Source of the DNA: Ancylobacter sp. IITR112
GTDB taxonomy: Bacteria; Pseudomonadota; Alphaproteobacteria; Rhizobiales; Xanthobacteraceae
Reading direction: 5' to 3'
DNA length: 64,000 nt
NCBI RefSeq assembly: GCF_041415945.1
Contig: NZ_JBGCUS010000001.1
Coordinates: 1,860,001-1,924,000, forward strand
The notes under the pieces were generated by a model. It saw nothing but the letters and a program-made list of their open reading frames with translations. It did no database searches and was not told where the DNA came from. Positions 1 through 20,033 of the stretch are shown here, piece after piece (the stretch's first letter is position 1; each line of letters starts with the position of its first letter). A program made the translations under genes and the position numbers.

Positions 1-1233
1 GAGCGTCTTTGCCAGGTACATCGCGATCTGGCGGGGCATCACCACGTTGGCCGTGCGGCGCTGCGAGATGATGTCGGCGCGGGTGATGTCGTAATGGGAG
101 GCCACGGCCTTCAGAATGTCTTCCACCCGGGCGCGCTTCGGCTCGGCGGTGCCCGCCAGATCCCGCAGCGCTGCCTCCGCCACGTCCCGGGTAAGCGGAA
201 CGTCACCAAGCTGGCTGTGCGCCAGCAGGCGGTTCAGCGCCCCGTCGAGCGACCGAGGGGCCCGCCCGCAAATCTGGGCGACGAAGTCCAGCACGTCCGG
301 CGGAACGGCAAAGTTCGGGAACTCGATCCCCAACGTGGCTACCCGGTCCGCGAGGATATCGCGCAGCAGTTTCTCATCCGGCGCGGCGATCACCAGCACT
401 AGGCCGCCGGCAAGGCGGGCGCGCTCGCGCTCTCCGATAACCTCGAGATCGCCAGGAGGCCGGTCGGCAGAGACCACCACCTGCCGCCCGGCTTCCACCA
501 ATCGGTAAATGGCCTCGTGAAATTCCTGCTGGACGATCTTGCCGCGCAGATTGTGTACATCGTCCAGCACCAGCAGATCCGCCGCCGTCAGGCCGTCACG
601 GAACTCTTGCATTTTCAGGTGCTGCACGGCATGGGCGATGCCCAGCATAAAGCGGTCCGCCGTCATATAGACCGCATTCCGCTCGCCAGCCGCTGCGGCG
701 ATTCCCTGCAGTAGGTGCGACTTTCCGCACCCATCGGCCCCGTAGACGTAGAGCGGATTGAACCGCGAAACCCCAGGTATGGCCGCTGCACTCGCCGCCG
801 CGTGAACCAGCCTATTCACAGCGCCGTGCCGGAAGGTCGAAAGCGTCTTGCTGGCATCCACCGCGGAGCCGATCTGCGCCCAGGAACGGGGCGGCGCCTT
901 CGCTGCAGGCTTGGCCGGCGTCGGGGGAACCACATGAGCCGCGCCGTCGGCGGCCCCAGCGGCTGGCGCCGCGCGCACATCAGTGCGAGCACCCGGCTGG
1001 CGCAGACCAATCACCACCTGGGTCACGGGCGCCACGTCTTGCCAGAGTTCGGTCAACAGGTCGGTATAGTGGTGGGCCAACCACTGGCGCAGGAACCGCG
1101 TAGGCACCGAAAGGCTCACCACCCCGTCGGCGCATCCAGCGAACTCCAGCCGGGCGAACCAGGCGTCATAGGTCTCCGATCCCACCCGGGCCTTGAGGGA
1201 GACGCGCAGTCGTTCCCATGTGTGTTTGTCCAT
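1..1233 (-). CDS. DnaA-like replication initiator of the prophage (3' end outside window)
   Basis: The 411 visible residues have the DnaA architecture. Residues 1-65 resemble domain I (WERLRVSLK, TYDAWFARLE). Residues 75-125 form an Ala/Pro-rich linker. The AAA+ domain has Walker A GADGCGKS (165-172), Walker B LLVLDDV (220-226) and a sensor-2-like segment RSLDGALNRL. The start of domain IV contains RRTANVVMPRQIAMYLAKTL, close to the DnaA box-binding signature. The start is preceded by GAGGTG at good spacing. It is the last visible gene of the minus-strand operon behind cro, so it most likely initiates replication of the element, though it could instead recruit or titrate host DnaA functions. 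The Walker A motif differs from the usual GGVGLGKT. It is probably not the host dnaA, because the neighbours are phage genes. Confidence 0.82.
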   Translation of the reverse strand, partial: MDKHTWERLRVSLKARVGSETYDAWFARLEFAGCADGVVSLSVPTRFLRQWLAHHYTDLLTELWQDVAPVTQVVIGLRQPGARTDVRAAPAAGAADGAAHVVPPTPAKPAAKAPPRSWAQIGSAVDASKTLSTFRHGAVNRLVHAAASAAAIPGVSRFNPLYVYGADGCGKSHLLQGIAAAAGERNAVYMTADRFMLGIAHAVQHLKMQEFRDGLTAADLLVLDDVHNLRGKIVQQEFHEAIYRLVEAGRQVVVSADRPPGDLEVIGERERARLAGGLVLVIAAPDEKLLRDILADRVATLGIEFPNFAVPPDVLDFVAQICGRAPRSLDGALNRLLAHSQLGDVPLTRDVAEAALRDLAGTAEPKRARVEDILKAVASHYDITRADIISQRRTANVVMPRQIAMYLAKTL

Positions 1234-1242
1234 AGCGGCACC

Positions 1243-2512: not shown

Positions 2513-3178
2513 TCAATCGTCCTCGTCCGGGCCCATGCCGTCATTGCCGGTCTGCTTGCGCCACCCGGCATCGAAGCGGGCGCGGCGAGCGTCGCCGAAC
2601 GGAAACGGGTTGTCGATGACGGGGCGATTGTCCTTGGCGTAGTCGCGGCCCATCTGCTCCGCGCCCGGGAGATCAACATCGGGCACGTCCGGCGTGGGTG
2701 CGCGCGCCGGTGTCGTTGAGCCGGGAGCCGGCGCCGGCTTCTCCACCACCTCCTGCGTCTGAACAACGCCATCCTTGTCGCGGAACAGCCGAACCGGGAC
2801 ACCGCCCATGTTCACCACGATCTCGCCGGCCCCGGGCGGCGGAACGAAGTCCGCCATGCGAGCGATGACCTGCTCCTTCACGGCGGTGTCAATCGACATC
2901 AGGCCGGCGGCTCGGAACAACGGCGGCTCAGAGGCCATGCCCAAGGCGTGCAAATACATATCCAGCATCGCTTCGGATTCCGCCCGGTCGTGCGGCTTCA
3001 TTGCGCGAATGCGGACGCAAGCCAGGATGGCCTTAGGCGTGAACCCGGCGGCCTTGGCTTCGGCCTTCACCGCAGCCTCGTCTTGGGCGAGCTGCTTCTT
3101 GGCGGCGCGGATGTTCTCGATGCGCTCCACATAGGAGCGAAGCTGTTCAGAACTGGCGGTATTCGTCCCGATGCTCAT
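2513..3178 (-). CDS. GapR-like (DUF2312) protein with RMF/CrpP-like C-terminal tail
   Basis: Residues 6-85 of the 221-residue product match the DUF2312/GapR family: SSEQLRSYVERIENI, a coiled stretch rich in Lys and Glu, GFTPKAILACVRIR and MLDMYLHALGM. GapR is an alphaproteobacterial nucleoid protein that binds overtwisted DNA and assists topoisomerases ahead of replication forks. The last 50 residues contain an Asn-Pro-Phe-Pro motif followed by DARRARFDAGW, the pattern of ribosome modulation factor/CrpP-like domains. The linker is Pro-rich. The start is set at the ATG preceded by GGAGGG. Host GapR proteins are about 90 residues, so this is an extended, fused form. Its place beside the DnaA-like gene suggests it supports element replication. 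Confidence 0.8.
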   Translation of the reverse strand: MSIGTNTASSEQLRSYVERIENIRAAKKQLAQDEAAVKAEAKAAGFTPKAILACVRIRAMKPHDRAESEAMLDMYLHALGMASEPPLFRAAGLMSIDTAVKEQVIARMADFVPPPGAGEIVVNMGGVPVRLFRDKDGVVQTQEVVEKPAPAPGSTTPARAPTPDVPDVDLPGAEQMGRDYAKDNRPVIDNPFPFGDARRARFDAGWRKQTGNDGMGPDEDD

Positions 3179-3220
3179 GACGCCCTCCAAGGCGTGGGTA
3201 AAAGCGCAGCGTTCTGACGA

Positions 3221-4960: not shown

Positions 4961-5215
4961 CTACGCCCTCCCGTGATCAGCAGAGGGCGCAGGCTCGCTG
5001 GCGAAGAAATCCTCTGCCTTGACCGCGATCCCCTCCTTGGCCGCGTGGTCCAGAAGGCGGCGCGCGTGCCAATGAGGGATGAACCCTCCGGTGCCGCCCT
5101 TGTCGCGCGGCATCCGCCAACGCTGAACGGTCGAGACGTTGACGTCGCACACGCCCGAGACCTTCGTCAGGCCACCAAGGCGGTTGATGAGAGAAGTCGC
5201 GGGCTCACATTGCAT
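4961..5215 (-). CDS. Cro-like repressor (YdaS-type HTH)
   Basis: The 84-residue product has a YdaS/Cro-type HTH in residues 8-50: [20 protein letters not shown] then TVQRWRM. This is the usual form of the antirepressor divergent from CI in alphaproteobacterial prophages. The ATG at 5215 is chosen because the longer frame upstream crosses the operators and promoter. The -10 box CATAGT ends 6 bases before this ATG, so the mRNA is probably leaderless. It is the first gene of the leftward operon that ends in the DnaA-like gene. Confidence 0.8.
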
Positions 5216-5221
5216 AGCGCG

Positions 5222-5250
5222 ACTATGAGATAATCGCACAATGCCGTCAA
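5222..5250 (-). promoter_or_regulatory. PR-like promoter of the cro operon
   Basis: On the minus strand, TTGACG (5250-5245) and CATAGT (5227-5222) are separated by 17 bases. Operator O1 fills the spacer and -10 box. The first base of the cro ATG lies 7 bases beyond the -10, which is where transcription would be expected to start. The same TTGACGGCAT beginning recurs in the rightward promoter at 7934. Confidence 0.65.
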
Positions 5251-5309
5251 CACCAATTATGAGACAAACGCACAGGACAGCAGCGCAGGCATAATGCGAA
5301 AATCGCACA
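5224..5309. promoter_or_regulatory. OR-like cluster of three operators
   Basis: Three 17-bp related sites occur at 5224-5240 (TATGAGATAATCGCACA), 5258-5274 (TATGAGACAAACGCACA) and 5293-5309 (AATGCGAAAATCGCACA). Centres are 34 and 35 bp apart. Each is an imperfect palindrome with half-site TGAGA/TCGCA. They lie between cro and the repressor gene, as OR1-3 do in lambda. A -10-like CATAAT at 5290-5295 could be the repressor promoter, giving a leader of only about 7 bases before the ATG at 5309. Confidence 0.8.
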
Positions 5310-5998
5310 TGGCCTTAAGCAAGCATCAGCAATGGATTGCCGACCAACTGGCAGCGACTGGCGTGTCGCAGTCCGAACTCGCGCGGCAGATCGGTCTCGA
5401 CGATCCGTCGAAGGTCAATCGGATCGTGAGAGGCCTCCGGCGGGTTCAGCCAGACGAGTTGGAGAGGGCGGAAGCATTCTTCGCATCCCTAGCCCAAGGC
5501 ACGCCGCCAACCGACAACGCGCGCCCAGTCCGGGCGACCATGGTGCCGACACCCGTCTCCGGCCAGGTAAGCGCTGGACTGTTCCAAGAGATCGACGCCC
5601 TCGGCAGCCAGGACCCGGATGAGGTTCTGGTTGCGAGAGACCCCAGGTACCCTCAGGCCCGCATCGTTGTGTTCGACGTCGGCGGCAACTCGATGAATGC
5701 CTTCGATCCGCCGATACCTGACGGCGCCCGCGTGAGCGGCCCGGTTTTCGAGGACACCCGCGAGGTGCCGCGAACGGGAATGGCGGTCATCATCCAGCGG
5801 TCAACATCAGACGGCCAGATGATCGAATGGTCCGTGAAGGAGCTTGAGGTTCGAGACGACGGATACACGTTCCACCCTCGCTCAACAGATCCCCGCTACA
5901 AGCCCATCGTCGTCGATACCGACTTGCATGCAGATGATGGCAAGACCGTCGAGATCGTCGCCCTCGTCACAGACGTGACGCGGCCGGTGAGGTGGTGA
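5309..5998 (+). CDS. CI/LexA-type prophage repressor (HTH plus S24 peptidase)
   Basis: The 229-residue protein has an HTH at about residues 16-45 (GVSQSELARQIGLDDPSKVN). An Ala-Gly cleavage site lies at 89-90 (VSAG). A S24 autoprotease domain follows, with Ser128 in GGNSMN and a candidate general-base Lys177 in WSVKEL. It should maintain lysogeny and be inactivated by RecA-stimulated self-cleavage. The start at 5309 is preferred over 5294 because the upstream ATG lies inside the probable -10 box. It is divergent from cro across three operators. Confidence 0.88.
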   Translation: MALSKHQQWIADQLAATGVSQSELARQIGLDDPSKVNRIVRGLRRVQPDELERAEAFFASLAQGTPPTDNARPVRATMVPTPVSGQVSAGLFQEIDALGSQDPDEVLVARDPRYPQARIVVFDVGGNSMNAFDPPIPDGARVSGPVFEDTREVPRTGMAVIIQRSTSDGQMIEWSVKELEVRDDGYTFHPRSTDPRYKPIVVDTDLHADDGKTVEIVALVTDVTRPVRW

Positions 5999-6024
5999 GG
6001 CCATAGCAGCGGCCAGCGAGGCGT

Positions 6025-6930
6025 TTAGAATGGCTCTCGTATTTGCCGAATATAATAGAGAGACGGCTTATACTCTCCGGTGATGTTACTTACGTATGTC
6101 ACGGTAACATCCGCCTTCACTGATTTTTGGTCGAATATAGAAGCTGGATTGATGTGAGGCGCCAAATGCAACGCGACACGATCTTTTGAGACAATATCTA
6201 TAACAGCTGCCCATCCAGTCGGCTTATCAAGATCGTGACGTCGGAACTCCACGTCGATATTGTCAATGTCGGCGGATTTCGTCTCTGGTTCGATGGCGGC
6301 CATTTCCGCCTCAGTAGGCACTTCGTCCAAAACCTCCCGTTCTAGCTTGGCATAATCACCCGAGGAAATAGACCGCGCGCCATGGCGCTGGCCGGGTCGG
6401 AGAAGATCAATCGCGGCAGAACTCGTCGCGCGCTCCCGCTTTGATAGCGCACGCTCGACGGCCCTCTCGATGCTGGCCTCGGTCACTCCTGCACGATATG
6501 CGGCCTGCTCGGTCAATCTCTTCCTCTGGCGCGACAGGACTGGAGAGATTGCCTTACGCATGCGCTTGAACAGCCACTCAACCCCGTACAAGGCTAGCAG
6601 CAATACAAGAACCGAGATGAGCCCATCAAAAGAATCCGGGACATCGTACCCTGTAAGGGCGTTGATGATGTCTGGCATCTCCTCTGCGATCTCCGGCGAA
6701 TAGGCCCCAACTATTATCGCTTGTAGCGTCTGGTGAAGGGGGCTTTCCTGAGAGACATTTCGAACCGAAACTCGAACTGATTCAATGTCGAGATTCGGGA
6801 ACATCTCGGTCAACACGACCAAGGATTCTCGCAACAGCTTCTCTTGCGCGACTAGAGCCCTCGTCACCTCTGACACGGACGCTGACGCGTCGAAGTCATA
6901 GGTGATGCTATGTGGAATAGCTACCTGCAT
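6025..6930 (-). CDS. AT-rich single-pass membrane protein in the immunity region
   Basis: The 301-residue protein has no recognised family. Residues 1-100 are soluble and acidic. A hydrophobic helix at about 103-125 (LISVLVLLLALYGVEWLF) is followed by a basic segment (KRMRKAI, SRQRKR), suggesting the C-terminal part is cytoplasmic. Residues 130-210 are helical and charged, and the last 80 look beta-rich. Base composition is visibly more AT-rich than the neighbours. It lies convergent to the repressor gene between the two operator clusters, the place of rexAB in lambda. Superinfection exclusion or another lysogen trait is a reasonable guess from position only. Confidence 0.7.
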   Translation of the reverse strand: MQVAIPHSITYDFDASASVSEVTRALVAQEKLLRESLVVLTEMFPNLDIESVRVSVRNVSQESPLHQTLQAIIVGAYSPEIAEEMPDIINALTGYDVPDSFDGLISVLVLLLALYGVEWLFKRMRKAISPVLSRQRKRLTEQAAYRAGVTEASIERAVERALSKRERATSSAAIDLLRPGQRHGARSISSGDYAKLEREVLDEVPTEAEMAAIEPETKSADIDNIDVEFRRHDLDKPTGWAAVIDIVSKDRVALHLAPHINPASIFDQKSVKADVTVTYVSNITGEYKPSLYYIRQIREPF

Positions 6931-7003
6931 GTCGTCCCCCCACCCCAGGAGATCGTAGCATGCAAAGCCCTTAGGTCACTGACTTACTCGCCGCCCCGCT
7001 GGT

Positions 7004-7252
7004 TCACCCAGCGTCCAGCACATCTTCTGGCACTTCACCATAGCTGCCAATGAGCACCGGCGGCTCGGCGTCGCCGCTCTCTGGCTCAACCTCCATAGAG
7101 AACGCCACGGCTCCGGCTTTGCTCAGGCTGAGGCGCTGAGCCTTCCTGTCCGCCTCCTCGGCGGAACGCACCTCCATCGGCACGCCCGCCTTGAGCTTCT
7201 TCCCCTTCTGCATTTCAAAGGGCTGAACCACGAAAAAGGTCTTCTTGCTCAT
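7004..7252 (-). CDS. Small hypothetical phage protein
   Basis: The 82-residue product begins MSKKTFFVVQPFEMQKGKKL and has an acidic C-terminus (SYGEVPEDVLDAG). The ATG overlaps the stop of the DUF3572-like gene. It resembles short conserved proteins of alphaproteobacterial prophages, with no assigned role. It is the third gene of a leftward transcript starting at the second operator cluster. Confidence 0.6.
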   Translation of the reverse strand: MSKKTFFVVQPFEMQKGKKLKAGVPMEVRSAEEADRKAQRLSLSKAGAVAFSMEVEPESGDAEPPVLIGSYGEVPEDVLDAG

Positions 7253-7587
7253 GAAACTCTCCTGGGCGGAATGGGTAGCCTGACGACGCCCGGCCTTGGC
7301 TTGGATGCGGGCAGCTCGCGCAGCGCATACTGCGCCATGGCAAAGTCAGCCGGCTGGCAAGCGATCTCCCGGCCGACCTCCTCCATCAGGCCGGGCGTAT
7401 CAGCGACGTAGTCGACCACGCCAGCGAGGAAGCGAGGATCTGACGCGCAGGCGCGGATTGAACCCGGCATCAGTCCGGTGATGGATAGGAACCGCTCTAG
7501 CCGAACACGATCCTCGGCGATGGCCCCTAGTGCACGGATGGCGATCCACTCGGCGCGGTCGCGATCCAAACGAGGAGGGCTAAGCAT
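7249..7587 (-). CDS. DUF3572-like protein
   Basis: From the ATG at 7587 the product is 112 residues. The helical region AEWIAIRALGAIAEDRVRL, FLSITGLMPGSI and FLAGVVDYVADTPGLM follows the DUF3572 pattern of alphaproteobacteria. A GTG at 7617 would add 10 residues. It overlaps the zinc-ribbon gene upstream. The role of the family is unknown. Confidence 0.65.
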   Translation of the reverse strand: MLSPPRLDRDRAEWIAIRALGAIAEDRVRLERFLSITGLMPGSIRACASDPRFLAGVVDYVADTPGLMEEVGREIACQPADFAMAQYALRELPASKPRPGVVRLPIPPRRVS

Positions 7588-7813
7588 AGATCCCCTCCCG
7601 GTCTTCGGTGACACCAACGATCACGCCGATCGCGGCGTCGCATGACCTGCAGGTGAACCTCTGGTTCCGCAGAAGCTGACTATCTAGCAGCTCGTCGATG
7701 CCGTCCGGGGCATCGTCTGCCACTGGAACGTCGACCGTGTGAATCGTGTCGACCTTGCAATTGAAGCACCGCACCTTGAGCCGGAAACGGGCGGCGATCG
7801 CTGTCTCATCCAT
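7580..7813 (-). CDS. Small zinc-ribbon protein
   Basis: From the ATG at 7813 the product is 77 residues with two CxxC knuckles (CFNC and CRSC) about 40 residues apart, the signature of a zinc ribbon. A longer start at 7900 is possible but reaches into a palindrome next to the operators. It is the first gene transcribed leftward from the second operator cluster and may be a nucleic-acid-binding regulator. Confidence 0.6.
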   Translation of the reverse strand: MDETAIAARFRLKVRCFNCKVDTIHTVDVPVADDAPDGIDELLDSQLLRNQRFTCRSCDAAIGVIVGVTEDREGIYA

Positions 7814-7909
7814 GGGATTGGGCCCCGTTCGTTCACTGTCTGTTCTCATTCTGTTAATGATCAAGCCGGGAGTCGAGTCGCCATCGATCTCATTCCGCAT
7901 GCGAAATGC

Positions 7910-7961
7910 TGTGCGATTATCTCACAACCCGCCTTGACGGCATCTATGAGATAATCTCATA
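7910..7961. promoter_or_regulatory. OL-like cluster of two operators
   Basis: The sites are 7910-7926 (TGTGAGATAATCGCACA on the minus strand) and 7945-7961 (TATGAGATAATCTCATA), with centres 35 bp apart. They match the three sites beside the repressor gene in sequence and spacing. They separate the leftward zinc-ribbon gene from the rightward operon, so the repressor should silence both directions. An adjacent near-perfect 18-bp palindrome (7891-7908) may be a further site. Confidence 0.8.
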
Positions 7962-7963
7962 CT
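7934..7963 (+). promoter_or_regulatory. PL-like promoter of the int-ward operon
   Basis: TTGACG at 7934-7939 and CATACT at 7958-7963 are separated by 18 bases, and an operator (7945-7961) lies between and over them. The -35 region and the bases after it match the cro promoter. The predicted transcript starts near 7970, giving about a 90-base leader before the gene at 8062. Confidence 0.6.
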
Positions 7964-8061
7964 GCCCTCATCAGCACACCGCTGATGCGTGCCCGGCGAC
8001 AGTCTCCCGCGCCCCTCGGCTGAGTGCCGGGCACGCTTCCCCTTCTGATGGAAGGTGCCCC

Positions 8062-10483: not shown

Positions 10484-11513
10484 GCGCAAGCTCGACGTGC
10501 GCATGCACGACACCACAGTCGGCATCTGGCAGGACAATCCCAACGACCCGACGTTCAAGACCGAAATATTCGACGGCCTGATCCGTCTGCTGCGCTCGCG
10601 CGGGTGGAAGGTCACGCGCGACGCTCACACGCACCGGCATTATCGGTGCCTGTCGAAGCACCACCGCATGGCACGCAAGGGGAACCTTCGGGCATCCCTT
10701 CGGCTCAGCGGTCGGGCGATCGAATTCGAGTGCTGGACCGAGACGTGGCAGAAGGTCAACCAGAACGGCCACCGCTACGACTTCGATAAGCGTGGCCGCT
10801 TCGATTACATCGACCGTCTGCGGCTTGATCTCGAAGAGCGCGCCATCATTGCGACGCTGAGGGCGGGCGCCGATGTCACCGTCTCGCGCTCCCGACCCTC
10901 GCCGAGCACGGGCGCCATCACCGCAATGTCCTACATTGAGGCGGGCTACGCCGAGAGCTGGCACAGCTACAAGGAGCTTGGCCGTCCGAAATGCGACCAA
11001 GCCTACAACGGCAAGAGCCGAGATGGCTTTCAGATCGAGCACGGCGCCACTGTTTGGACGACGGATTTCAAGGGCCGCATCGTCCGAGGCACGGCGCTCT
11101 ACAACATCAACAACATGTGGTGGGTGGTCACTGGCCCGCATGGCCTGCTCAACCAGGCCTGCCACGAGATCTATGTCGAGCAACCTGAAGACCTCCGCCG
11201 CAAGCGCAATGGTCGCGCTCGCCGCAACCGGCTTGAGCGGGAGCTCGCCCAAGCCGTCTCATCTCATCACTACAGTCGCGCCGAGACGCTGAAGCGCATC
11301 ATCTTCGGTGATGAGCCGATCTATCGCATCTGGTCGCGCAAAAACGATTGTTTCTATGCGCCCCAATATTGCGGCTACACGGCCGATGAAAACCGCGCCG
11401 GCCGGTACACCCGCGCCGAGGCCGAACGCGAAGTCCGCCGCGTTCCTCATCACCTCCATGCCATAGGCCCCGACGGGCGGCGTGAGGACTTCGACATGGC
11501 GGAGGCGATCTAA
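10476..11513 (+). CDS. Hypothetical phage protein, 345 residues
   Basis: The ATG at 10476 overlaps the previous gene; the longer frame upstream is not needed. The protein has an N-terminal alpha/beta segment (KTEIFDGLIRLLRSRGWKVT), many aromatic residues in the middle (NINNMWWVVTGPHG), a basic region (RRKRNGRARRNRLERELAQA) and an acidic end. It resembles no family I recognise with certainty. It lies just before a LexA-like HTH gene and a DUF5131 gene. Confidence 0.65.
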   Translation: MGERKLDVRMHDTTVGIWQDNPNDPTFKTEIFDGLIRLLRSRGWKVTRDAHTHRHYRCLSKHHRMARKGNLRASLRLSGRAIEFECWTETWQKVNQNGHRYDFDKRGRFDYIDRLRLDLEERAIIATLRAGADVTVSRSRPSPSTGAITAMSYIEAGYAESWHSYKELGRPKCDQAYNGKSRDGFQIEHGATVWTTDFKGRIVRGTALYNINNMWWVVTGPHGLLNQACHEIYVEQPEDLRRKRNGRARRNRLERELAQAVSSHHYSRAETLKRIIFGDEPIYRIWSRKNDCFYAPQYCGYTADENRAGRYTRAEAEREVRRVPHHLHAIGPDGRREDFDMAEAI

Positions 11514-11516
11514 GCC

Positions 11517-11882
11517 ATGCTCACCCCTCGCCAGCATGATTTGCTCGTTTTCATCGACACCCACATCCGCGACCGCGGATGCGCGCCGGCCGTCCGCGAG
11601 ATGGGCGAGGCGTTAGGCCTGAAATCCCTCAACAGCGTTCATCTGTTGCTCAGTTCGCTGGAAACACGAGGGTTCATCCGGCGCCTACGTCATCGCGCGA
11701 GGGCCATTGAGGTCGTTCGACTGCCGGACGGCAAGCTGAACATCGCCGCCGAAGCCGTCGCCGCGATCAAGCTCCGGAAGAAGGCCCGCGATGTCGGTCT
11801 CTTGGCTGGCGCTGAACTTTGGGCCGCAGCCGACCGGGCTGAGGACGCCGTCCTTGCGAAGCTGGAGGCGGACCATGGGTGA
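11517..11882 (+). CDS. LexA-type winged HTH protein without peptidase domain
   Basis: Residues 1-65 (LTPRQHDLLVFIDTHIRDRG, APAVREMGEALGLKS, LLLSSLETRGFIRR) match the LexA DNA-binding domain. The 121-residue protein has no S24 peptidase part; the C-terminal half is helical. It may bind LexA-like sites or regulate the element. It starts 3 bases after the preceding stop and overlaps the DUF5131 gene by 8 bases. Confidence 0.72.
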   Translation: MLTPRQHDLLVFIDTHIRDRGCAPAVREMGEALGLKSLNSVHLLLSSLETRGFIRRLRHRARAIEVVRLPDGKLNIAAEAVAAIKLRKKARDVGLLAGAELWAAADRAEDAVLAKLEADHG

Positions 11883-12960
11883 TCACACCGGCATCGAATG
11901 GGCCGACGCGACATGGAATCCCATCGTCGGGTGCTCCATTGTCTCCCCTGGCTGCACCAACTGTTACGCCATGGGGCAGGCCGCGCGCATCGAGCGCATG
12001 CAGCCCGCCTCGCACTATGCCGGCACGACGCAGTCCAGCAAGGCCGGCGCCATCTGGTCGGGCAAGCTGAAGGTGGCGCCGGATCACATCCTCACCCAGC
12101 CCCTGCACTGGCGCCGCCCACGCCGCATCTTCGTGAATTCCATGGGCGACCTGTTCCATGAGGACGCGCCCGACCACTGGATTGATCGCGTCTTTGCCAT
12201 CATGGCGCTCGCCCCGCAGCACACCTTCATGGTGCTGACCAAGCGCTCGGCGCGCATGCGCGACTATGTCGGCACCCGGGCGGGCGACTGGATGCTGCAT
12301 TGGCCGGACGCGGCACGCAAAGCCGGCGCGTTGCTCGGGGATGTCGCCGCCCTCGGCGCCGTGCCCTTTCCCATCCCGAACGTCTGGCTCGGCGTCTCAA
12401 CCGAGGATCAGCGCCGCGCCGATGAGCGCGTGCCGGATCTGCTGGCCGCCCCGGCCTCCATCCGCTTCGTCAGCGCCGAGCCGCTGCTCGGGCCGCTCAA
12501 CCTCCGCCGCATCCGCATCGCTCCCAATCATCACACGATGCTCGACGCGCTGGACGGCTACGCCATCACGGAAAACATTTCCGGCAGCGGCCAAGAACGG
12601 GCGAAGCTCGACCTTGTGATCGTTGGCGGCGAGAGCGGCCCCAAGGCCCGGCCCATGCACCCGGACTGGGCACGCTCCCTGCGCGACCAGTGCGCCGCCG
12701 CCGGCACGGCGTTTTTCTTCAAGCAGTGGGGCGAGTGGTTGCACGAAGATCTGGTCAGAGATGGCCAACATCCCGGCGCGCGCTTCTTCTCTGCGGACGA
12801 CGGGCCGATGGACGAGGCGCCGCCCTTTGGGCCCACTACCGGCCGTCTTTGGCATTGGTGGGAGCCCGACCACAAGGCGTCCATCCGCGTCGGCAAGCGC
12901 GCTGCCGGCCGGCTGCTAGACGGCGTCGAGCACAATGCCATGCCGGAGGTGCGGTCATGA
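11875..12960 (+). CDS. DUF5131 (phage Gp37/Gp68) three-cysteine-motif protein
   Basis: The 361-residue protein opens with GIEWADATWNPIVGC, followed by SPGCTNCYAM, the three-Cys motif of the Gp37/Gp68 (DUF5131) family. Later family words include FVNSMGDLFHED, NVWLGVSTEDQ, RFVSAEPLLGP and VIVGGESG. The family is common in phages and may bind an iron-sulfur cluster through the CxxC-type motif, but the reaction is unknown to me. The partner gene often seen beside it (tcmP type) is not visible here. Length is normal. The start overlaps the LexA-like gene. Confidence 0.82.
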   Translation: MGDHTGIEWADATWNPIVGCSIVSPGCTNCYAMGQAARIERMQPASHYAGTTQSSKAGAIWSGKLKVAPDHILTQPLHWRRPRRIFVNSMGDLFHEDAPDHWIDRVFAIMALAPQHTFMVLTKRSARMRDYVGTRAGDWMLHWPDAARKAGALLGDVAALGAVPFPIPNVWLGVSTEDQRRADERVPDLLAAPASIRFVSAEPLLGPLNLRRIRIAPNHHTMLDALDGYAITENISGSGQERAKLDLVIVGGESGPKARPMHPDWARSLRDQCAAAGTAFFFKQWGEWLHEDLVRDGQHPGARFFSADDGPMDEAPPFGPTTGRLWHWWEPDHKASIRVGKRAAGRLLDGVEHNAMPEVRS

Positions 12961-13472
12961 CCACACCCCATCGCGTCCAGATCACCCGCAACGCCTATGG
13001 CCGCGCCACCTTCCCGCGCGGCGCTGTCCGCGTTGATCGCGGCAGCCGTTGGGTATCGCCCTTCTGGTTCGACCAGGAGCCAATCGCGCGAGCCATGACG
13101 AAACGGCTTGTTTCCGACACGAGAGCCAACCGAATGCAGTTGGTGACGCAGCTGCATTTCGCCTGGCTGATGGGCCTCACGCAGACGCACCCGGCCTTCT
13201 GGTGCCTGTCGGAAGCTGCGGTCGCCGAATTGCCCACCCCGCCCAGCTTGCTGGAGGTGGAAAGGGAACTGCGCGGCAAGGTGCTGGCGGACTGGGCTGA
13301 GATCGGCCTGCCGTGCATTGGCGACGTGCTGCTCGCCATCGCCAACCGGACGGCCGACGGCAAGCTCTTCCCGACGGCATCGGACAACTTCAAGCCCGAA
13401 GTGGTCATTAGAGATCCTCGCAAGCCTTACCGGGGCGGCGTTGATCTCGGCTATGCGGCATGGGGGCGCTGA
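12957..13472 (+). CDS. DUF4326-like protein
   Basis: The 171-residue product begins with HRVQITRNAYGRATFPRGAV followed by RVDRGSRWVSPFWF. This resembles the DUF4326 motif, in which a conserved Gly-Arg and Asn-Pro-Phe segment follows a similar beginning; here Asn is replaced by Ser. A helical middle (LVTQLHFAWLM) follows. The ATG overlaps the preceding stop (ATGA). Function of the family is unknown. Confidence 0.55.
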   Translation: MTTPHRVQITRNAYGRATFPRGAVRVDRGSRWVSPFWFDQEPIARAMTKRLVSDTRANRMQLVTQLHFAWLMGLTQTHPAFWCLSEAAVAELPTPPSLLEVERELRGKVLADWAEIGLPCIGDVLLAIANRTADGKLFPTASDNFKPEVVIRDPRKPYRGGVDLGYAAWGR

Positions 13473-13930
13473 TGAACTTCCGTGTCGCAACCGAGATCAA
13501 GCCCCGGCTCAAGTCCGATCGTCCGCGTCGGCAGCGTCGCCCGCGCGATCTGCGCGCCCGGCTTGAAGACGCCGATCACTTGCGGTTCATCCGCGCGCTT
13601 CCCTGCCTCATCAGCGGCTACACGCCAGCCGGCCAAGCGGCACACATCCGCTACGCCAATGCGCAGTTCGGCAAGGAGATCACCGGAATCGGCGTGAAGC
13701 CGGACGACAAATGGACCGTGCCGCTCTGCGCCTGGGAGCACACCGAGAGCTCCGGCGCGCAGCACCGCTTCGGCGAGGAGGCTTGGTGGATCGACCGCGG
13801 CATCGACCCGCTGCAGGTCGCCTCCAACCTCTATGCCTGCTCCGTCGCGCTGCGCGCGATGCGGATGGATGAAGGCTCCATCATCCAGGCGCTGACGCTG
13901 ATTATTCGGAACGCGCGGGGGGACCAGTGA
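13472..13930 (+). CDS. HNH-like nuclease family protein (Ref/DUF968-like)
   Basis: The 152-residue product has LPCLISG (an incomplete knuckle with one Cys), then AAHIRYANAQFG, KPDDKWTVPLC, WEHTESSGAQHRFGEE and WWIDRGIDPL. The order resembles DUF968/Ref-type HNH proteins used in phage recombination modules. The expected second Cys and the usual His-His pair are altered (WEH instead of HHH), so activity is doubtful. The ATG overlaps the previous stop (TGATG). Confidence 0.5.
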   Translation: MNFRVATEIKPRLKSDRPRRQRRPRDLRARLEDADHLRFIRALPCLISGYTPAGQAAHIRYANAQFGKEITGIGVKPDDKWTVPLCAWEHTESSGAQHRFGEEAWWIDRGIDPLQVASNLYACSVALRAMRMDEGSIIQALTLIIRNARGDQ

Positions 13931-16554
13931 TGAACGCCCCGGCCTCCTATCGTCAGTTCCTCGAAGCCAAGATGAAGGTCGCACCTTCGACCGGCGTCTC
14001 TGTCCCGCTGGAAGAGATCAATCCTGACCTCAAGCCGTTCACGCGCGCCGTCGTCCAATGGGCAGCCGCCGGCGGATGCCGGGGCATCTTCGCCAGCTTC
14101 GGGCTGCACAAGACGTCGACGCAGATCGAGCTCTGCCGACTGCTGAAGGGCCGCGCCGGCGGCGAGGCGCTGATCGTGCTGCCGCTGGGCGTCCGGCAGG
14201 AGTTCTTCCGCGACGCGCGGCTCCGCTTCTTGGGCGACTTCGCGGTGTCGCTCCGCTTCATCCAGTCGGAAGCCGAGCTGGCAGCGGCCCGCGCCGATGG
14301 TGGCGACCACATATTCCTGACGAACTACGAGACGATCCGCGAAGGGAAGCTTGACCCGGGCCAGTTTACCATTGCCTGCCTCGACGAGGCGTCGATCCTG
14401 CGCAGCTTCGGCTCCAAGACCTTCCAGACGTTCCTGCCGCTGTTCGACAAGGTCCGCTTCCGCTTCGTCGCGACAGCCACACCTTCGCCGAACCGGTTCA
14501 AAGAGCTCATCCACTACGCCGGGTTCCTCGGCATCATGGATACCGGCCAGGCGCTCACCCGCTTCTTCCAGCGCAATTCCGAGAAGGCCGGCGACCTCAC
14601 GCTTTACCCCCATAAGGAACACGAGTTCTGGATGTGGGTGTCGACCTGGGCGGTTTTCCTGCAAAAGCCTTCTGACCTCGGCTTCTCGGACGAGGGCTAC
14701 GACCTCCCGCCGCTCACTGTCCGCTGGCATGAGGTCCCCGTCGACCTGATCGGCTCAAATGCCGACCGCGACGGTCAGATGGCCCTAATCCGGCCGGAGG
14801 CCAAGGGGCTATCGGAGGAGGCGCGCGAGCGCCGCGCCGCCCTGCCGGCCTGCATTGCCCGGATGCGCGACATCATCGCAGCCGATCCGGAGAGTCACCG
14901 CATCCTATGGCACGACCTTGAGGACGAGCGCCGCGCCATCGAGGCGGCGGTGCCCGGCGTGCGCTCGGTGTTCGGAACCCAGGATCTTGCAGAGCGCGAG
15001 GACCGCATCATCGCCTTTTCCGACGGCGGCTTCCCGTTCCTTGCCGCCAAGCCGGTGATGCTCGGATCCGGCTGCAACCTTCAGCGCCACTGCCACAAGG
15101 CGGTGTTCCTCGGGGTCGGGCACAAGTTCAACGACTTCATCCAGGCCGTGCATCGCATCCAGCGTTTCGGTCAGGAGCACCCCGTTGAGATCGACATCAT
15201 CTATCCCGAGAGCATGCGGGCGGCGCGCCGTGACCTCGAGGCCAAATGGGCGCGCCATGAGGAAATGGCCGCGCGCATGAGCGAGATCATCCGCAAGCAC
15301 GGGCTCAGCCTGGCCGGTATGGCCGAGGTGCTCCAGCGCTCCATCGGCGTTCAGCGCATCGAGGCCAGCGGCGACGGCTGGCTGGTGGCGAACAACGATT
15401 GCGTCGAAGAGTGCAGGCGCATGGGGAACGACAGCGTCGACCTCATCGTCACTTCGATCCCCTTCTCCAATCACTACGAATACACGCCCACCTATGACGA
15501 CTTCGGCCACACCGACGATGACGAACATTTCTTCGGGCAGATGGACTTCCTGACGCCGGAGCTCCTCCGGATCCTGAAGCCCGGCCGGATGGCCTGCATC
15601 CACGTCAAGGACCGGATCCTGTTCGGCTCCGTCACAGGCGCCGGCACGCCGACGGTGAACCCCTTCCACGCCAAGACCCTGACGCACTTCATGCGGCACG
15701 GCTTCGCCTACATGGGCATGGTGTTTATCGACACCGACGTCGTGCGCGAGAATAACCAGACCTATCGGCTGGGCTGGACCGAGAACGCGAAAGACAGCAG
15801 CAAGATGGGGTTCGGCTCGCCCGAATTCGTCCTCGTGTTCCGCAAGCTGCCGACCGATCGATCCCGCGCCTATGCCGACGATCCGGTGACGAAGCAGAAG
15901 CCGCACGTCGAGATGCTCGACGGCCGCATCGTTGAATTCGACGACAAGGGCCGGCCGGTCCCCGGCACCGGCTATTCCCGGGCCCGCTGGCAGACCGACG
16001 CGCATGCGCGCTGGCGTTCCAGCGGCAACCGCCTGCTGACGGCCGACGAGATCGCCCAGCTCGATCCTTCCACCATCGGCAAGGTCTTCAAGCAGTTCAG
16101 CTTGGAGACCGTCTACGACTACGAGACCCATGTGAGGATCGGCGAGGAGCTGGACTACCGCGGCGTCCTGCCGGCGGTGTTCATGTCGCTCTGGCCGGCC
16201 AGCACCCGGCCGGACGTCTGGCACGACGTCGATCGGATGCGCACCCTGAACACGGCGCAGGCCTCGGCCGGCCGGGAGCTCCACGTCTGCCCCCTGCAGT
16301 TCGATATCGTCGATCGCTGCATCACTCGCTACACCAACCCCGGCGAGCTCGTTTTCGACCCCTTCGGCGGGCTGTTCACGGTGCCCAACCGGGCCCTTCA
16401 TCTGGGACGCCGGGGCCGGGCAGCCGAGCTTCATCACGGCTATTTCCTCGACGGTGTGAAGTACCTCGAGGCGTTGGAGCGCAAGAGGGCAACCCCGTCT
16501 CTGTTCGATTTCCTCGCCGCGGATTCCACCGCCAATGCGGAGGCTGCGGAATGA
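13930..16554 (+). CDS. Fusion of SNF2/DEAD-type helicase and DNA amino-methyltransferase
   Basis: The 874-residue protein joins two enzymes. The helicase half has FGLHKTST (57-64) at the Walker A position, CLDEAS (150-155) at motif II, TATPSP (182-187) at motif III and HRIQRFGQ (408-415) at motif VI. The methyltransferase half has VTSIPF (507-512) at the catalytic motif IV position and FDPFGG (809-814) at the SAM-binding motif I. This order (IV before I) fits a beta-class N4/N6 enzyme. Walker A and the DPPY-type motif are both degenerate, as seen in phage relatives. It probably modifies phage DNA against restriction, in a role like P1 DarB, which also joins these activities. No cognate nuclease is visible. 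Confidence 0.82.
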   Translation: MNAPASYRQFLEAKMKVAPSTGVSVPLEEINPDLKPFTRAVVQWAAAGGCRGIFASFGLHKTSTQIELCRLLKGRAGGEALIVLPLGVRQEFFRDARLRFLGDFAVSLRFIQSEAELAAARADGGDHIFLTNYETIREGKLDPGQFTIACLDEASILRSFGSKTFQTFLPLFDKVRFRFVATATPSPNRFKELIHYAGFLGIMDTGQALTRFFQRNSEKAGDLTLYPHKEHEFWMWVSTWAVFLQKPSDLGFSDEGYDLPPLTVRWHEVPVDLIGSNADRDGQMALIRPEAKGLSEEARERRAALPACIARMRDIIAADPESHRILWHDLEDERRAIEAAVPGVRSVFGTQDLAEREDRIIAFSDGGFPFLAAKPVMLGSGCNLQRHCHKAVFLGVGHKFNDFIQAVHRIQRFGQEHPVEIDIIYPESMRAARRDLEAKWARHEEMAARMSEIIRKHGLSLAGMAEVLQRSIGVQRIEASGDGWLVANNDCVEECRRMGNDSVDLIVTSIPFSNHYEYTPTYDDFGHTDDDEHFFGQMDFLTPELLRILKPGRMACIHVKDRILFGSVTGAGTPTVNPFHAKTLTHFMRHGFAYMGMVFIDTDVVRENNQTYRLGWTENAKDSSKMGFGSPEFVLVFRKLPTDRSRAYADDPVTKQKPHVEMLDGRIVEFDDKGRPVPGTGYSRARWQTDAHARWRSSGNRLLTADEIAQLDPSTIGKVFKQFSLETVYDYETHVRIGEELDYRGVLPAVFMSLWPASTRPDVWHDVDRMRTLNTAQASAGRELHVCPLQFDIVDRCITRYTNPGELVFDPFGGLFTVPNRALHLGRRGRAAELHHGYFLDGVKYLEALERKRATPSLFDFLAADSTANAEAAE

Positions 16555-18314
16555 CCCGCAAGATGCTCGTCGCCGATCTCCTGTGCGGCGCCGGCGGCTC
16601 GTCCACCGGTGCGCAACGAGCGCTCTCAGCGCTTGGGCTTGAGATGGAACTCGTCTGCGTCAATCACTGGCCCGTCGCCATCGACACCCACACCCGCAAC
16701 CATCCCGAGGCCCGGCACTATGTGCAGGACATCGCCACCGTGCGGCCGCACCTGCTGGTGCCCGATGGCTATCTCGACCTCCTGATGGCCTCGCCGATCT
16801 GCACACACCATTCGGTGGCGCGCGGCGGCAAGCCGACTTCAGACCAGCAGCGCAGCGACCCGTGGCACATCATCACCTGGCTCACCGAGCTTCGGGTCAA
16901 GCGCCTCATCATCGAGAATGTGTGGGAGTTCACCGGCTGGGGGCCGGTCGATCCCAAGACGGGTAAGCCCATTGCGGCGCGCAAGGGCGAGTATTTCCAT
17001 GCGTGGATCGAGACGTTGAAGCGGCTGGGCTTCGAGCCGGAATGGCGCAAGCTGAATGCGGCCGACTACGGCGACGCCACCACCCGCCAGCGGTTCATCC
17101 TGATGGCGCGTTCGGATGGACGCCGGGTGCATTGGCCGATGCCGACGCATGCCAAGCGCGGCGCTTCCGATGGAAGCCTGTTCGCGCCGTCGAAGACCTG
17201 GCGGCCAGCGCGCGAGATCATCGACTGGAAGATCAAGGGCCGGTCGATCTTCAACCGCAAGAAGGATCTCGCGCCGAAGACGCTGGCTCGGATCTATGCC
17301 GGCGCGGTGAAGTTCGGCTGGCCGGAGCCGTTCCTCGTCATCCTGCGCAATCACATGGCGGGGCAGAGCGTCGACGGCCCCCTGCCCACCATCGCCGCTA
17401 ACGGCACCCACATTGGGCTGGCGCAGCCGGTGGTCGTATCGCTCGCACATGGTGCCGATGCAGGCGACCAAGACCCGCATAGCCGTCGCGTAAAAAGCAC
17501 GGACGAGCCTATCGGCACGATCCACGCCGGCGGCAAGAACTTCGGCGTCGCCGAGCCGGTCATCATGAACGGCCGCAAGGGCAACCAGGCGAAGGGCGTC
17601 TCAACCGAACCGATTCCGACGCTTGACACCAAGGGTGGCGTCTGGCTGGCCGAGCCGCTGGTGCTTTCGCAGCAAAATAGCGGCGCGGCACGAACCGCCA
17701 ACGATCCCCTGCCGACCATCACGACAGGCGGCGCGGCGACCGAGGTGCGTCCGGGCTGCGCCCGGCCGATGCTGGTGGAGCCGTTCGTGCTCTCGCAGGC
17801 CTCGGGCGGCGCGCCGCGCTCGGTCAATGAGCCGATCCCCACCATGACGACCGGAGGCGCCGGCGGCGCGCACGCGCTGATCATGTCCTACTACGGGGCA
17901 AGTCAGAATGGAGCGGGCTGCACTTGCGAAGATGACCCCCTACCAACCGTGACCGTGAAGGATCGGTTCGGCATGGTCGTGCCCGTCACGCAGTCGGGTG
18001 GTGGCGCGACGGCCCGAGATGTTGACCAGCCGATCCCGACACTCACGACGGTCTGCGCCACCGGCCGCGTGAACCTCGTCTCCGGAGAGGTCGACGGGCA
18101 GCGCTACGACATCCTGTTCCGGATGCTGGAGCCTCACGAGCTCGCGGCCGCCATGGGGTTCAACACCGAGGAGCAGGCCTACGAATTCGCCGGCACCAAG
18201 ACCGAGCAGATCAAGCAGATCGGCAACGCGGTCTCAGTCGCGAAGATGAAGGCGTGCGTCGGTGCGCTGATGGCGGACGAGGCTGTCCCGATGTTCCAGG
18301 AGGCGGCCGAATGA
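16551..18314 (+). CDS. C5 cytosine DNA methyltransferase with seven tandem repeats
   Basis: The 587-residue enzyme has motif I LLCGAGGSSTG (10-20), the catalytic loop ASPICTHHS with Cys84, ENV at 122-124 (motif VI), TTRQRFILMAR (177-187, motif VIII) and QIGNAVSV (556-563, motif X). The usual Pro-Cys-Gln is replaced by Ile-Cys-Thr, a variant known in phage enzymes. Between motif VIII and X lie seven repeats (259-509), each centred on Pro-[LI]-x-Thr (PLPT or PIPT), 33-43 residues long. This is where the target recognition domain normally sits. The ATG overlaps the helicase-methylase stop. It likely protects phage DNA or regulates genes; no partner restriction enzyme is visible. Confidence 0.88.
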   Translation: MTRKMLVADLLCGAGGSSTGAQRALSALGLEMELVCVNHWPVAIDTHTRNHPEARHYVQDIATVRPHLLVPDGYLDLLMASPICTHHSVARGGKPTSDQQRSDPWHIITWLTELRVKRLIIENVWEFTGWGPVDPKTGKPIAARKGEYFHAWIETLKRLGFEPEWRKLNAADYGDATTRQRFILMARSDGRRVHWPMPTHAKRGASDGSLFAPSKTWRPAREIIDWKIKGRSIFNRKKDLAPKTLARIYAGAVKFGWPEPFLVILRNHMAGQSVDGPLPTIAANGTHIGLAQPVVVSLAHGADAGDQDPHSRRVKSTDEPIGTIHAGGKNFGVAEPVIMNGRKGNQAKGVSTEPIPTLDTKGGVWLAEPLVLSQQNSGAARTANDPLPTITTGGAATEVRPGCARPMLVEPFVLSQASGGAPRSVNEPIPTMTTGGAGGAHALIMSYYGASQNGAGCTCEDDPLPTVTVKDRFGMVVPVTQSGGGATARDVDQPIPTLTTVCATGRVNLVSGEVDGQRYDILFRMLEPHELAAAMGFNTEEQAYEFAGTKTEQIKQIGNAVSVAKMKACVGALMADEAVPMFQEAAE

Positions 18315-18481
18315 CTGACCTCTCCACCCTCAAGGCCGCCGAGCGCGATTGCAGTCGCCGGGCCGCCGCCCTCCAGAGGGAGGTCGCACGCCTCCGCAAG
18401 GTCATCCGCAAGACGGTCAAGCAGGAGCGCGCAGCAGGCCGCCGGGCCGCTGCCGAGGCGCGGGAGAGCGGGAATGGTTGA
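18311..18481 (+). CDS. Small coiled-coil protein
   Basis: The 56-residue product (MTDLSTLKAAERDCSRRAAA, then LQREVARLRKVIRKTV) is a highly basic helix with leucine heptads. The ATG overlaps the methyltransferase stop and the end overlaps the next gene by 8 bases. Possibly a DNA-associated accessory protein; no family recognised. Confidence 0.5.
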   Translation: MTDLSTLKAAERDCSRRAAALQREVARLRKVIRKTVKQERAAGRRAAAEARESGNG

Positions 18482-18758
18482 GCAACCCCGAAGCTCGATG
18501 CCGGAAGTTCGTAACCCGGTCCTGGCCCTGCCGTCTACCAAACGCATAGCGGACCTTTCACCGGAAACACGCGCTCTGCTGGCTGATATCCTAGGCGAGA
18601 TAGCCACCGACGCGCGTTCACGTGCGCAGAAAAGCTGGCGCCAAAACAAAGGACCGATGGCCGCGTACTGGAAGGCAGTCGGAGCCTACGCGTCTCACCT
18701 AAAACGTGCCGTGTCTCCGAAGCGCACCCACCCCGCCGCGCAGGAGGGGAGCCGGTGA
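18474..18758 (+). CDS. Hypothetical protein
   Basis: The 94-residue product has a helical core (LSPETRALLADILGEIATDA) and basic aromatic segment (KSWRQNKGPMAAYWKAVGAY). It overlaps the coiled-coil gene and the following GTG. No family recognised. Confidence 0.5.
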   Translation: MVEQPRSSMPEVRNPVLALPSTKRIADLSPETRALLADILGEIATDARSRAQKSWRQNKGPMAAYWKAVGAYASHLKRAVSPKRTHPAAQEGSR

Positions 18759-18913
18759 GCCAGACCCCCGAGAGCATCCGCGCCGGGCTGGTGTGCGCCG
18801 CCATTGGCGCCCTGCTGATCGCCGGCTCGATGACCCTGAACCCCGATATCTGGAGCGCCCGGCCCGCTGCCGCGCTCAATACCCATACCTATGGAGCGTG
18901 CAATGCCCGATGA
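18755..18913 (+). CDS. Small membrane protein with GTG start
   Basis: A GTG overlapping the previous stop opens a 52-codon frame with one hydrophobic helix (IRAGLVCAAIGALLIAGSM) and a polar tail. AGGAGGGGAG lies just upstream, a strong ribosome site. Its stop overlaps the start of the next gene. Topology suggests a short N-terminal cytoplasmic part and a tail outside. Function unknown. Confidence 0.5.
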   Translation: MSQTPESIRAGLVCAAIGALLIAGSMTLNPDIWSARPAAALNTHTYGACNAR

Positions 18914-20033
18914 ACTGGACCCGGTGAAGGTGCTGGAAAGCGCAGAAAAGGCGCTGCGGCCGTTCGCCAACCGCATCTTCAACGACAATGGCGACATGAC
19001 GCTCTCGGGCACACACGCCCTGACGCTCGATGACTACGCCGCCTCCTATTACGCGCACCGGAAGGTCGAAGCCGCGCTCCTCGGCGCCCGCGCCATGCAG
19101 GCGGCCATGGCCAGGCGGGAGGTGGTGCAGAGCCTGGTCGAAAGCCTTGTGTATGGCGCCGACATGATCAGCGAGTACCTAGAAAAGTACCACGATTATG
19201 AGGGCGACACGCCGGCCAAGTCGGCGCTACGCGGTATCATGCACCACCTTCAAGGTGCCTCCCTCGAACCCGCCGGGGCGCAGGAGGGGGCGGAAGTCCC
19301 GGGACCTCTCTACAAGCGCGTTGAGGCGATCCTTGATGAGCATAGCGCATGGATCGCGCGGCCGAATGACGAGGTGACGAAGCGCGTCGCTCTCGCCGCC
19401 ATGTTCGCCGCGCACGCAGTGCTGATCGAGGAGGAAGCGCCCGAAGACCGTTATCTGCGCGATGGCGCCACCCACGCGCCGGTCATCAGCGACGAAACGA
19501 TCAACACGGTGCGCGCCCACGCGATCCACCATGCGGCGCAGGGTGGCATGCCCCAGGCAGAAGCCGAGGATCATTTCGGCACCCCCACCCCCGCAGGGGC
19601 GGGCGATCTGGTGGAGCGGGCGAAAGCCACTGCTACGTCTGCGGCAGAGGCCGGCGACTTTGAGCAGGTCACGCGGACCATTGTGCTGCTTCGCGATCTC
19701 GCCTCCCGTATCGAGGCCCTGGAGGCCGAGGTGGACGGCTGGCGCAAAGCGACTTGGGAGGCGCGCGAAGGGATCGTGCAGCGAGACGAAAGGCTCCCAT
19801 TGTTAATGAATGGGTGGACCGCCCGCGCCACGACCGCCGAAGCCGAGCGCGTCGCGCTCAAGGCCGAGGTGGAGCGGCTGCGCGTGATCGTGGGGAGGTT
19901 CTGTCAGGCGAACGACGAGGGAAAACTCTGCGACGATATCGACAATGACGGCTCGCACTACCCGTCGCAGTTCCTCGACGACACGCTGAACATGGCAGCC
20001 GCCGCGCTCGCGCCGGCCAAGGCGGGAGGGTGA
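18903..20033 (+). CDS. Hypothetical phage protein, 376 residues
   Basis: The ATG at 18903 follows GGAG at 7 bases; an alternative lies at 18891. The sequence is helical with an acidic middle (LIEEEAPEDRYLRDGATHAP) and a heptad-rich segment around 230-300 (LASRIEALEAEVDGW, AERVALKAEVERLRVIV). It resembles the large variable ead/Ea22-type proteins of phage accessory operons, but the match is loose. Function unknown. Confidence 0.55.
   Translation: MPDELDPVKVLESAEKALRPFANRIFNDNGDMTLSGTHALTLDDYAASYYAHRKVEAALLGARAMQAAMARREVVQSLVESLVYGADMISEYLEKYHDYEGDTPAKSALRGIMHHLQGASLEPAGAQEGAEVPGPLYKRVEAILDEHSAWIARPNDEVTKRVALAAMFAAHAVLIEEEAPEDRYLRDGATHAPVISDETINTVRAHAIHHAAQGGMPQAEAEDHFGTPTPAGAGDLVERAKATATSAAEAGDFEQVTRTIVLLRDLASRIEALEAEVDGWRKATWEAREGIVQRDERLPLLMNGWTARATTAEAERVALKAEVERLRVIVGRFCQANDEGKLCDDIDNDGSHYPSQFLDDTLNMAAAALAPAKAGG

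Follow-up and report, generated by a model that had tools for sequence, protein, structure and literature searches.

A probable lambda-type, five-operator immunity region with an adjoining putative LexA-box/GANTC promoter in a prophage of Ancylobacter sp. IITR112

Five operator sites in two clusters

The 64,000-nucleotide stretch of the Ancylobacter sp. IITR112 genome that was analysed here (the window) overlaps a prophage of ~60.8 kb, which lies between 56-bp direct repeats of the 3' end of a tRNA-Asp gene at window coordinates -37551 and 23209 (ARAGORN). Inside this prophage, we identified a repressor gene, a divergent gene for a Cro-like protein and five similar 17-bp sites grouped in two clusters, which very probably belong to an immunity region: a lambda-type switch of five operators that would be silenced by the repressor, with a promoter carrying a LexA box and GANTC sites beside the second cluster. 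Its core elements are:

4961-5215, minus strand: Cro-like small protein, 84 amino acids, assigned from its position, weak matches to DNA-binding families and homologues
5222-5250, minus strand: promoter PR, -35 TTGACG (5250-5245), 17 bp, -10 CATAGT (5227-5222)
5224-5240, plus strand: operator 1 of cluster 1 (OR1-like), within the spacer and -10 of PR, which reads leftward
5258-5274, plus strand: operator 2 of cluster 1 (OR2-like)
5293-5309, plus strand: operator 3 of cluster 1 (OR3-like), ending on the first base of the repressor start codon
5309-5998, plus strand: repressor, 229 amino acids, helix-turn-helix (HTH) plus LexA/CI-type S24 domain, with conserved A89-G90, S128 and K177
7910-7926, minus strand: operator 2 of cluster 2 (OL2-like), at 35 bp from the other operator of this cluster
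7934-7963, plus strand: promoter PL, -35 TTGACG, 18 bp containing an operator, -10 CATACT
7945-7961, no strand assigned: operator 1 of cluster 2 (OL1-like), a perfect odd palindrome within PL
7988-8035, plus strand: inverted repeat CGTGCCCGGC...GCCGGGCACG in the leader past PL

The five sites are imperfectly palindromic 17-mers that differ from TATGAGATAATCGCACA at no position (5224), one (7910, minus strand), two (5258 and 7945) or three (5293). Their centres lie 34, 35 and 35 bp apart within the clusters, corresponding to ~3.2-3.3 helical turns at 10.5 bp per turn, in agreement with the original prediction of 34-35 bp and about 3.3 turns. Scanning the window with up to three mismatches returned six matches, which are these five sites with the palindromic 7945 counted on both strands, while 0.02 matches were expected by chance and none of 100 shuffles reached six; the five matching imperfect palindromes that had been noticed earlier were thus recovered at the same places. 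Using a 17-bp matrix built from the five sites and 10 sites of relatives, solely these five scored above 9 bits in 124 kb of prophage and flanks, a result that speaks for specificity rather than independence, since the matrix was trained on the sites being tested. In the whole 5-Mb genome, the degenerate palindrome was found at 20 places with up to three mismatches: three places without any mismatch, all within the prophage (5224, 7910 and 7945), three with two mismatches (5258 and 5293, plus a lone site on the chromosome) and 14 with three. Outside the prophage, the 15 places are isolated and unclustered, with two or three mismatches each, and there was no other cluster genome-wide at this threshold; the random scatter that would have counted against the original prediction was not seen. 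The shuffle control and the whole-genome scan rule out a chance or scattered motif.

Cluster 1 does lie between the repressor and Cro-like genes, as first proposed, but it is not purely intergenic, since the site at 5293-5309 overlaps the repressor ATG (5309-5311). One site of each cluster is embedded in a TTGACG-17/18-CATA(G/C)T sequence, 5224 in PR and 7945 in PL, so that the two operator clusters overlap two early promoters recognised by consensus only. PR and PL were the sole promoter-like matches in 3.2 kb, where shuffles gave 0.9, which makes the consensus scan alone weak. The two are alike in geometry and both are kept in the closest relatives (L008 and L009, see below); a PL-type composite also exists in cluster 2 of a more distant relative, L108. 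Finding a promoter embedded in each cluster explains how repressor binding would silence both arms. The start codon of the Cro-like gene (5215) begins at the seventh base past the PR -10, so that the mRNA would have no leader or almost none, and we infer that the third site, covering the repressor start, would be the natural site for autoregulation.

The N-terminus of the repressor gave a weak HTH match in Pfam. Since Pfam at E<=0.1 left the S24 part of the window protein unmatched, a fold comparison was used, in which the C-terminal domain of the model (pLDDT, the predicted local distance difference test, of 87) matched LexA and lambda CI. A profile search with the repressor also listed the lambda repressor (2.5e-7) and LexA (1.9e-5), below a top row that is an engineered repeat protein matched over 22 residues. 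In 20 homologues, S128 and K177 are invariant and A89-G90 nearly so; by analogy, we take S128 and K177 to be the catalytic residues and A89-G90 the cleavage site. PF00717 is listed for several homologues. The fold match and the conserved residues point to a CI/LexA-type repressor with an HTH and a self-cleaving S24 domain. The position of the Cro-like gene fits that of a divergent cro gene, its family matches being weak ones to DNA-binding families.

Operator type and repressor HTH in related phages

Two relatives with repressors 86-87% identical to that of the window, L008 and L009, keep all five sites at spacings of 33/35 and 35 bp (L012, labelled as Xanthobacteraceae, appears to be the same sequence as L008). 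In both of them, cluster 1 sites are found at 4917, 4950 and 4985, the last with four mismatches, and the counterparts of 7910 and 7945 are found at 7986 and 8021 in L008 and at 7732 and 7767 in L009. L010 and L011 have repressors that are 64-68% identical with a different HTH; window-type sites were not found there with up to four mismatches, and other palindromes, of two classes by eye, occupy both clusters. L037 has an unrelated repressor candidate of 108 amino acids and five TTTCC-N5-GGAAA sites, arranged 3+2 and spaced by 35, 23 and 35 bp (the motifs of L035, L037 and other relatives were read by eye). At least three putative operator motifs, the window type, the L010/L011 type and that of L037, are thus seen in one genomic slot. 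Searching L041 by tblastn gave no immunity genes.

For a wider comparison, the window, L008 and L009 served to build an operator matrix. It was first applied to 95 loci totalling 702 kb, many of which had short flanks; clusters of sites scoring over 14 bits turned up just in L016/L125, which are one phage, and in L108, with a single match in L064. When 56 repressor N-termini were ranked (window, L008 and L009 included, L101 being a fragment and ten having one common HTH), L108, L125 and L016 came next after the window, L008 and L009. A second set consisted of 62 loci found through the neighbouring CxxC protein plus two named phages, 61 of them with a repressor match. Sites were present in 18 of the 19 loci with an HTH score of at least 74 versus one of the 42 below. 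At a score of at least 79, all 16 loci had two or more sites each, versus three of 45 below, these being L181 (one site), L176 (two) and L153 (four). In L185, a full 2+3 set of sites was found at 35 and 34/34 bp.

The relatives represent a natural domain-swap series, in which the window motif follows the repressor HTH. The layout kept in L008 and L009, the way operator type tracks the HTH and the fact that both clusters change together with it strongly support one repressor acting on both arms, as the original prediction would have it. Its broader proposal of a lambda-like immunity region also gains from these comparisons and from the promoters found in both clusters.

Concerning the leader past PL, its 10-bp inverted repeat (CGTGCCCGGC/GCCGGGCACG) also occurs in the contigs of L008-L010 and L037, being kept in L010 and L037 despite their different operators, and L011 has an inverted repeat of other letters at the corresponding position (by eye). 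It may be an RNA structure or an antitermination site.

A putative leftward promoter with tandem GANTC sites and a LexA box

Beside cluster 2, we found what appears to be an additional promoter, absent from the original prediction, that would point from this cluster to the repressor gene:

7870-7879, no strand assigned: tandem GANTC sites GAGTCGAGTC (CcrM target), the sole copy of this 10-mer in the genome
7848-7876, minus strand: leftward promoter, -35 TCGACT (7876-7871) in the GANTC pair, 17 bp, -10 CAGAAT (7853-7848)
7831-7845, plus strand: LexA (SOS) box GTTCACTGTCTGTTC, covering the position where the leftward transcript is expected to start

Going left from cluster 2, one reads CGACTCGACTC, CAGAAT 17 bp past TCGACT, and then GAAC-N7-GAAC, which is the alphaproteobacterial LexA motif (PMC3323433, PMC7987155). 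This promoter was read by eye from aligned relatives, which have a similar geometry; its consensus match is weak, and a consensus scan gave no leftward promoter in or beside cluster 2. There are four LexA-type boxes (GTTC-N7-GTTC) in the window versus 0.93 expected, and only the one at 7831-7845 is within its prophage part. The same box type, GAACACAATAGGAAC, stands upstream of the host lexA gene, as judged from sequence. The class GANTCGANTC, to which GAGTCGAGTC belongs, is found at 10 places in the genome. GANTC is five-fold depleted in the prophage (59 versus 291 expected between -37551 and 23209) and 2.5-fold below expectation in the flanks (108 versus 275).

When viral sequences were searched for CGACTCGACTC and ATGAGAAC at a distance of 14-30, 57 stretches matched, versus two for the reversed pattern. 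The second GAAC, which was outside the query, was located exactly seven bases on in 53 of these 57 (43 of 47 distinct strings), and in at most one stretch for each other offset between 0 and 19. The four stretches without it include L064 and L073, which look like chance matches, and L069, which ends too early to tell.

A protein-chosen set gave a similar picture. Among its 62 loci, which form 49 groups at 90% identity, all 49 groups had at least two GANTC sites within 260 bp upstream, 40 had a tandem, 47 a LexA box and 39 both. In random 260-bp windows of the same loci, which may overlap the element itself, tandems were seen in 4.4%, boxes in 3.5% and at least one GANTC in 29%. This set is biased, since motif-bearing loci supplied its seven seed proteins and 13 of its contigs were already among the 57. 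All 14 CxxC proteins together vary too much for their profile to be of use in searching. In four loci from three genomes chosen by the window protein, the box was found in all four and the tandem in three.

The GANTC copy nearest to the box begins 28-29 bases ahead of it in 40 of 47 aligned rows. This copy has C at the N position in 52 of 56 rows, while N varies in the distal copies (second copy: C 36, T 12, A 7; third: A 20, T 7, C 1); as matches were picked as GANTC, just this freedom at N is informative. The extended GcrA motif YGAKTCG (PMC7987155) is present as CGAGTCG at 7874-7880, and 54 of 56 aligned rows fit it on either strand. The host has GcrA (7e-56) and a CcrM-like open reading frame (ORF) with a RAMA domain (2.6e-14) that is its CcrM candidate. 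The predicted LexA control of the leftward promoter is well supported by sequence. Considering the conserved GANTC sites, the free N in distal copies, the extended GcrA motif and the host GcrA and CcrM candidate, we hypothesize that this promoter may also depend on methylation. It adjoins PL, points to the convergent repressor gene where both are found and persists through operator exchange, which argues that it is part of the switch. In the literature searched, as far as its excerpts go, we found no description of this shared SOS/GANTC promoter.

The genes that follow this promoter, and a gene of the right arm for a LexA-type domain, are:

7580-7813, minus strand: first leftward gene, 77-amino-acid CxxC protein, zinc-ribbon-like (model pLDDT 76; start taken at 7813, 7900 also possible)
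7249-7617, minus strand: DUF3572 protein of the leftward operon
7004-7252, minus strand: 82-amino-acid protein of the leftward operon, relatives present in 53 of 397 genomes from the order
6025-6930, minus strand: last leftward gene (PHROG 4506), which converges with the repressor gene
11517-11882, plus strand: stand-alone LexA DNA-binding domain, 121 amino acids, no peptidase, on the strand read by PL

Family searches gave no evidence of an antirepressor function for the leftward genes. The 121-amino-acid protein is 55% identical over 71 amino acids to the N-terminus of the host LexA and is a candidate for a phage-made uncleavable SOS repressor. Cluster 2 had been described as preceding an operon that leads to int; this was not confirmed, since the ORF concerned (21880-23145) has no match in Pfam (E<=5), PHROG (E<=0.001) or PDB sequences (E<=1). 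This ORF adjoins the att-like tRNA-Asp repeat and is 74% identical to an ORF in L038, and from its position it is plausibly, though unconfirmed, an integrase.

Two phage methylase genes lie on the PL strand at 13927-18314, one of N6/N4 type with a weak SNF2 match and one of C5 type. The left arm has a GapR-like DNA-binding domain (2513-3190) and, by eye only, a DnaA-like reading frame (1-1240, minus strand), which suggest further host cell-cycle-like genes. In L034, by eye, an IS3-type-transposase-like ORF (12495-13316) lies beside a terminase-like ORF that apparently starts late (10928-12445), and that prophage may be defective; another of its ORFs (18257-19543) resembles PAPS-reductase/DndC-like proteins.

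Alternatives, proposed mechanism and known systems

Several observations weigh against a lambda-type switch with an SOS/GANTC promoter. The HTH score cut-off was set after the scores were seen, and the loci are not independent, as they include near-copies and the two sets have at least 13 contigs in common (L164, for example, is L108). In L156, no sites were detected despite its window-like HTH (75), in L181 (75) just one was, and L153, whose HTH frame looks disrupted, carries sites in spite of a poor HTH score. The operators at 5258 and 5293 are the weakest of the five, with two to three mismatches. There is no consensus promoter for the repressor gene, by eye just a CATAAT (5290-5295) without a good -35. 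As for the leftward promoter, tandem GANTC is no commoner in the genome than a backwards control (10 versus 9 places), and in many relatives the Shine-Dalgarno sequence coincides in part with the second half of the LexA box, an overlap that could by itself conserve part of the box. It was also proposed that, near SOS genes, GANTC may owe its conservation to a possible overlap with the LexA motif and have no regulatory effect (PMC7987155); at this promoter, the two motifs do not overlap. Finally, another study reports no asymmetric distribution of GcrA sites in phage genomes (PMC9437464).

The five sites could be a chance or structural repeat without regulatory role, a reading that keeps next to no probability given the shuffle control, the genome scan, the conservation in relatives and the HTH correspondence. 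They could also be operators that chiefly serve the Cro-like protein, in which case the repressor would bind at other places or at some of them only. In lambda, CI and Cro have sites in common, and L010, L011 and L035, which have another HTH, are also devoid of a window-type Cro-like gene, so that Cro type changes with operator type. Since the distant L016, L108 and L148 keep the operator type together with a similar repressor HTH, in a comparison made of HTH and operators, we consider this second reading quite improbable and favour the repressor as the protein that would bind all five sites.

Concerning the leftward promoter, the conserved GACTCGACTC may be a -35 element plus the site of an unnamed activator, its being a methylation target incidental. 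The near-invariant C in the box-nearest copy, which sits at the -35 position, fits this view, as do GANTC sites reported near SOS promoters without apparent effect (PMC7987155). The variable N of the distal copies, the five-fold depletion of GANTC in the prophage and the host's GcrA and RAMA-domain CcrM candidate speak against it, leaving it a little short of an even chance. Alternatively, the LexA-type box at 7831 may serve the phage's own stand-alone LexA domain, instead of or besides the host LexA. This protein is encoded on the PL strand, resembles the host LexA as described above and has matches in L038 (52%) and L092 (35%). Several residues differ, however, in what we take to be its recognition helix, just two of the 57 stretches gave a match (many being too short to cover the right arm), and matches among phage records are four Listeria phage records and one unassigned phage, with no rhizobial phages; we regard this as rather unlikely and retain the host LexA as the probable regulator.

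Two clusters ~2.7 kb apart, each with a promoter-like sequence that has an operator in its spacer, are visible in the sequence. In the mechanism that we propose, the repressor would bind all five sites and shut both PR (Cro-like protein, left arm) and PL (right arm), while limiting its own synthesis from the site at 5293-5309; cooperation may occur between dimers 34-35 bp apart and, by looping, between the two clusters. Upon DNA damage, RecA would trigger repressor self-cleavage, which would open both arms. The leftward promoter has the repressor sites on its upstream side, with no overlap, so that it would be held by LexA in the lysogen and opened by the SOS response. Its transcript would run to the repressor gene and, as a simple scan recognised no terminator on the way, could proceed into it in antisense direction. 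From the GANTC sites, the activity of this promoter may also depend on CcrM methylation.

Like lambda, this region has a CI-type repressor with self-cleavage residues, a divergent gene that is a candidate cro, 17-bp sites and operators in both early promoters. Unlike lambda, which has three operators per cluster and six in all, it has 3+2 sites, with none further above 9 bits in the 124 kb. In lambda, OR operator centres are about 23-24 bp apart; the 34-35 bp seen here is about one helical turn more, so that the angular offset is similar. The genes between the clusters here read against the repressor gene, and the LexA-box/GANTC promoter is on the inner side of the OL-like cluster, both unlike lambda. 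LexA-controlled antirepressor or lytic promoters are known from other phages, such as 186 Tum, and the promoter described here resembles these by having an SOS box in the switch region and differs by its added tandem GANTC. An SOS box on a phage promoter in the switch region is mentioned as a general statement in PMC9437464. The distance between the two clusters is similar to that between OR and OL in lambda, about 2.3 kb (PMC5880393). The switch of phage 933W also has five operators, with no OL3, in another host and with another repressor, which was reported to bind non-cooperatively (PMC3317979, PMC10742460). In Sinorhizobium phage phi3LM21 and Rhizobium phages RHph_TM3_3_3 and RHph_N28_2, we found an S24 repressor (39-44% identity, 65-90% of the query covered), a small, related CxxC gene and a GANTC/LexA-box promoter of the same kind; unlike the window, these have other repressor N-termini, and phi3LM21 has other palindromes. 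Some phages of this group encode GANTC methyltransferases, and that of phi3LM21 was shown to be GANTC-specific (PMC5537653); the window's methylases are of N6/N4 and C5 type. Rhizobium phage 16-3, another alphaproteobacterial temperate phage, which we liken by description alone, has a C repressor system with operators oL1, oL2, oR1 and oR2 (PMC12429752). By its sequence features, the operator system belongs to the lambda kind as a new member, with five sites like 933W, and it is a variant on account of the SOS/GANTC promoter.

As a lambda-type switch, the five operators provide a clean new example. Of greater importance is the added promoter: if true, it would link prophage induction to two host signals, in a class of bacteria among which cell-cycle methylation is widespread. 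We suggest, as a tentative and still somewhat doubtful generalisation, that alphaproteobacterial temperate phages have a common two-input promoter. LexA would repress it, tandem CcrM-methylated GANTC sites (GcrA) would gate it, and it would stand back to back with an OL-like promoter, aimed at the repressor gene. As this promoter persists while repressors and operators are exchanged, induction would read both DNA damage and the cell-cycle/replication state. The common promoter string gives a handle for locating immunity regions in alphaproteobacterial prophages, and whether phages read the host cell cycle becomes directly testable.

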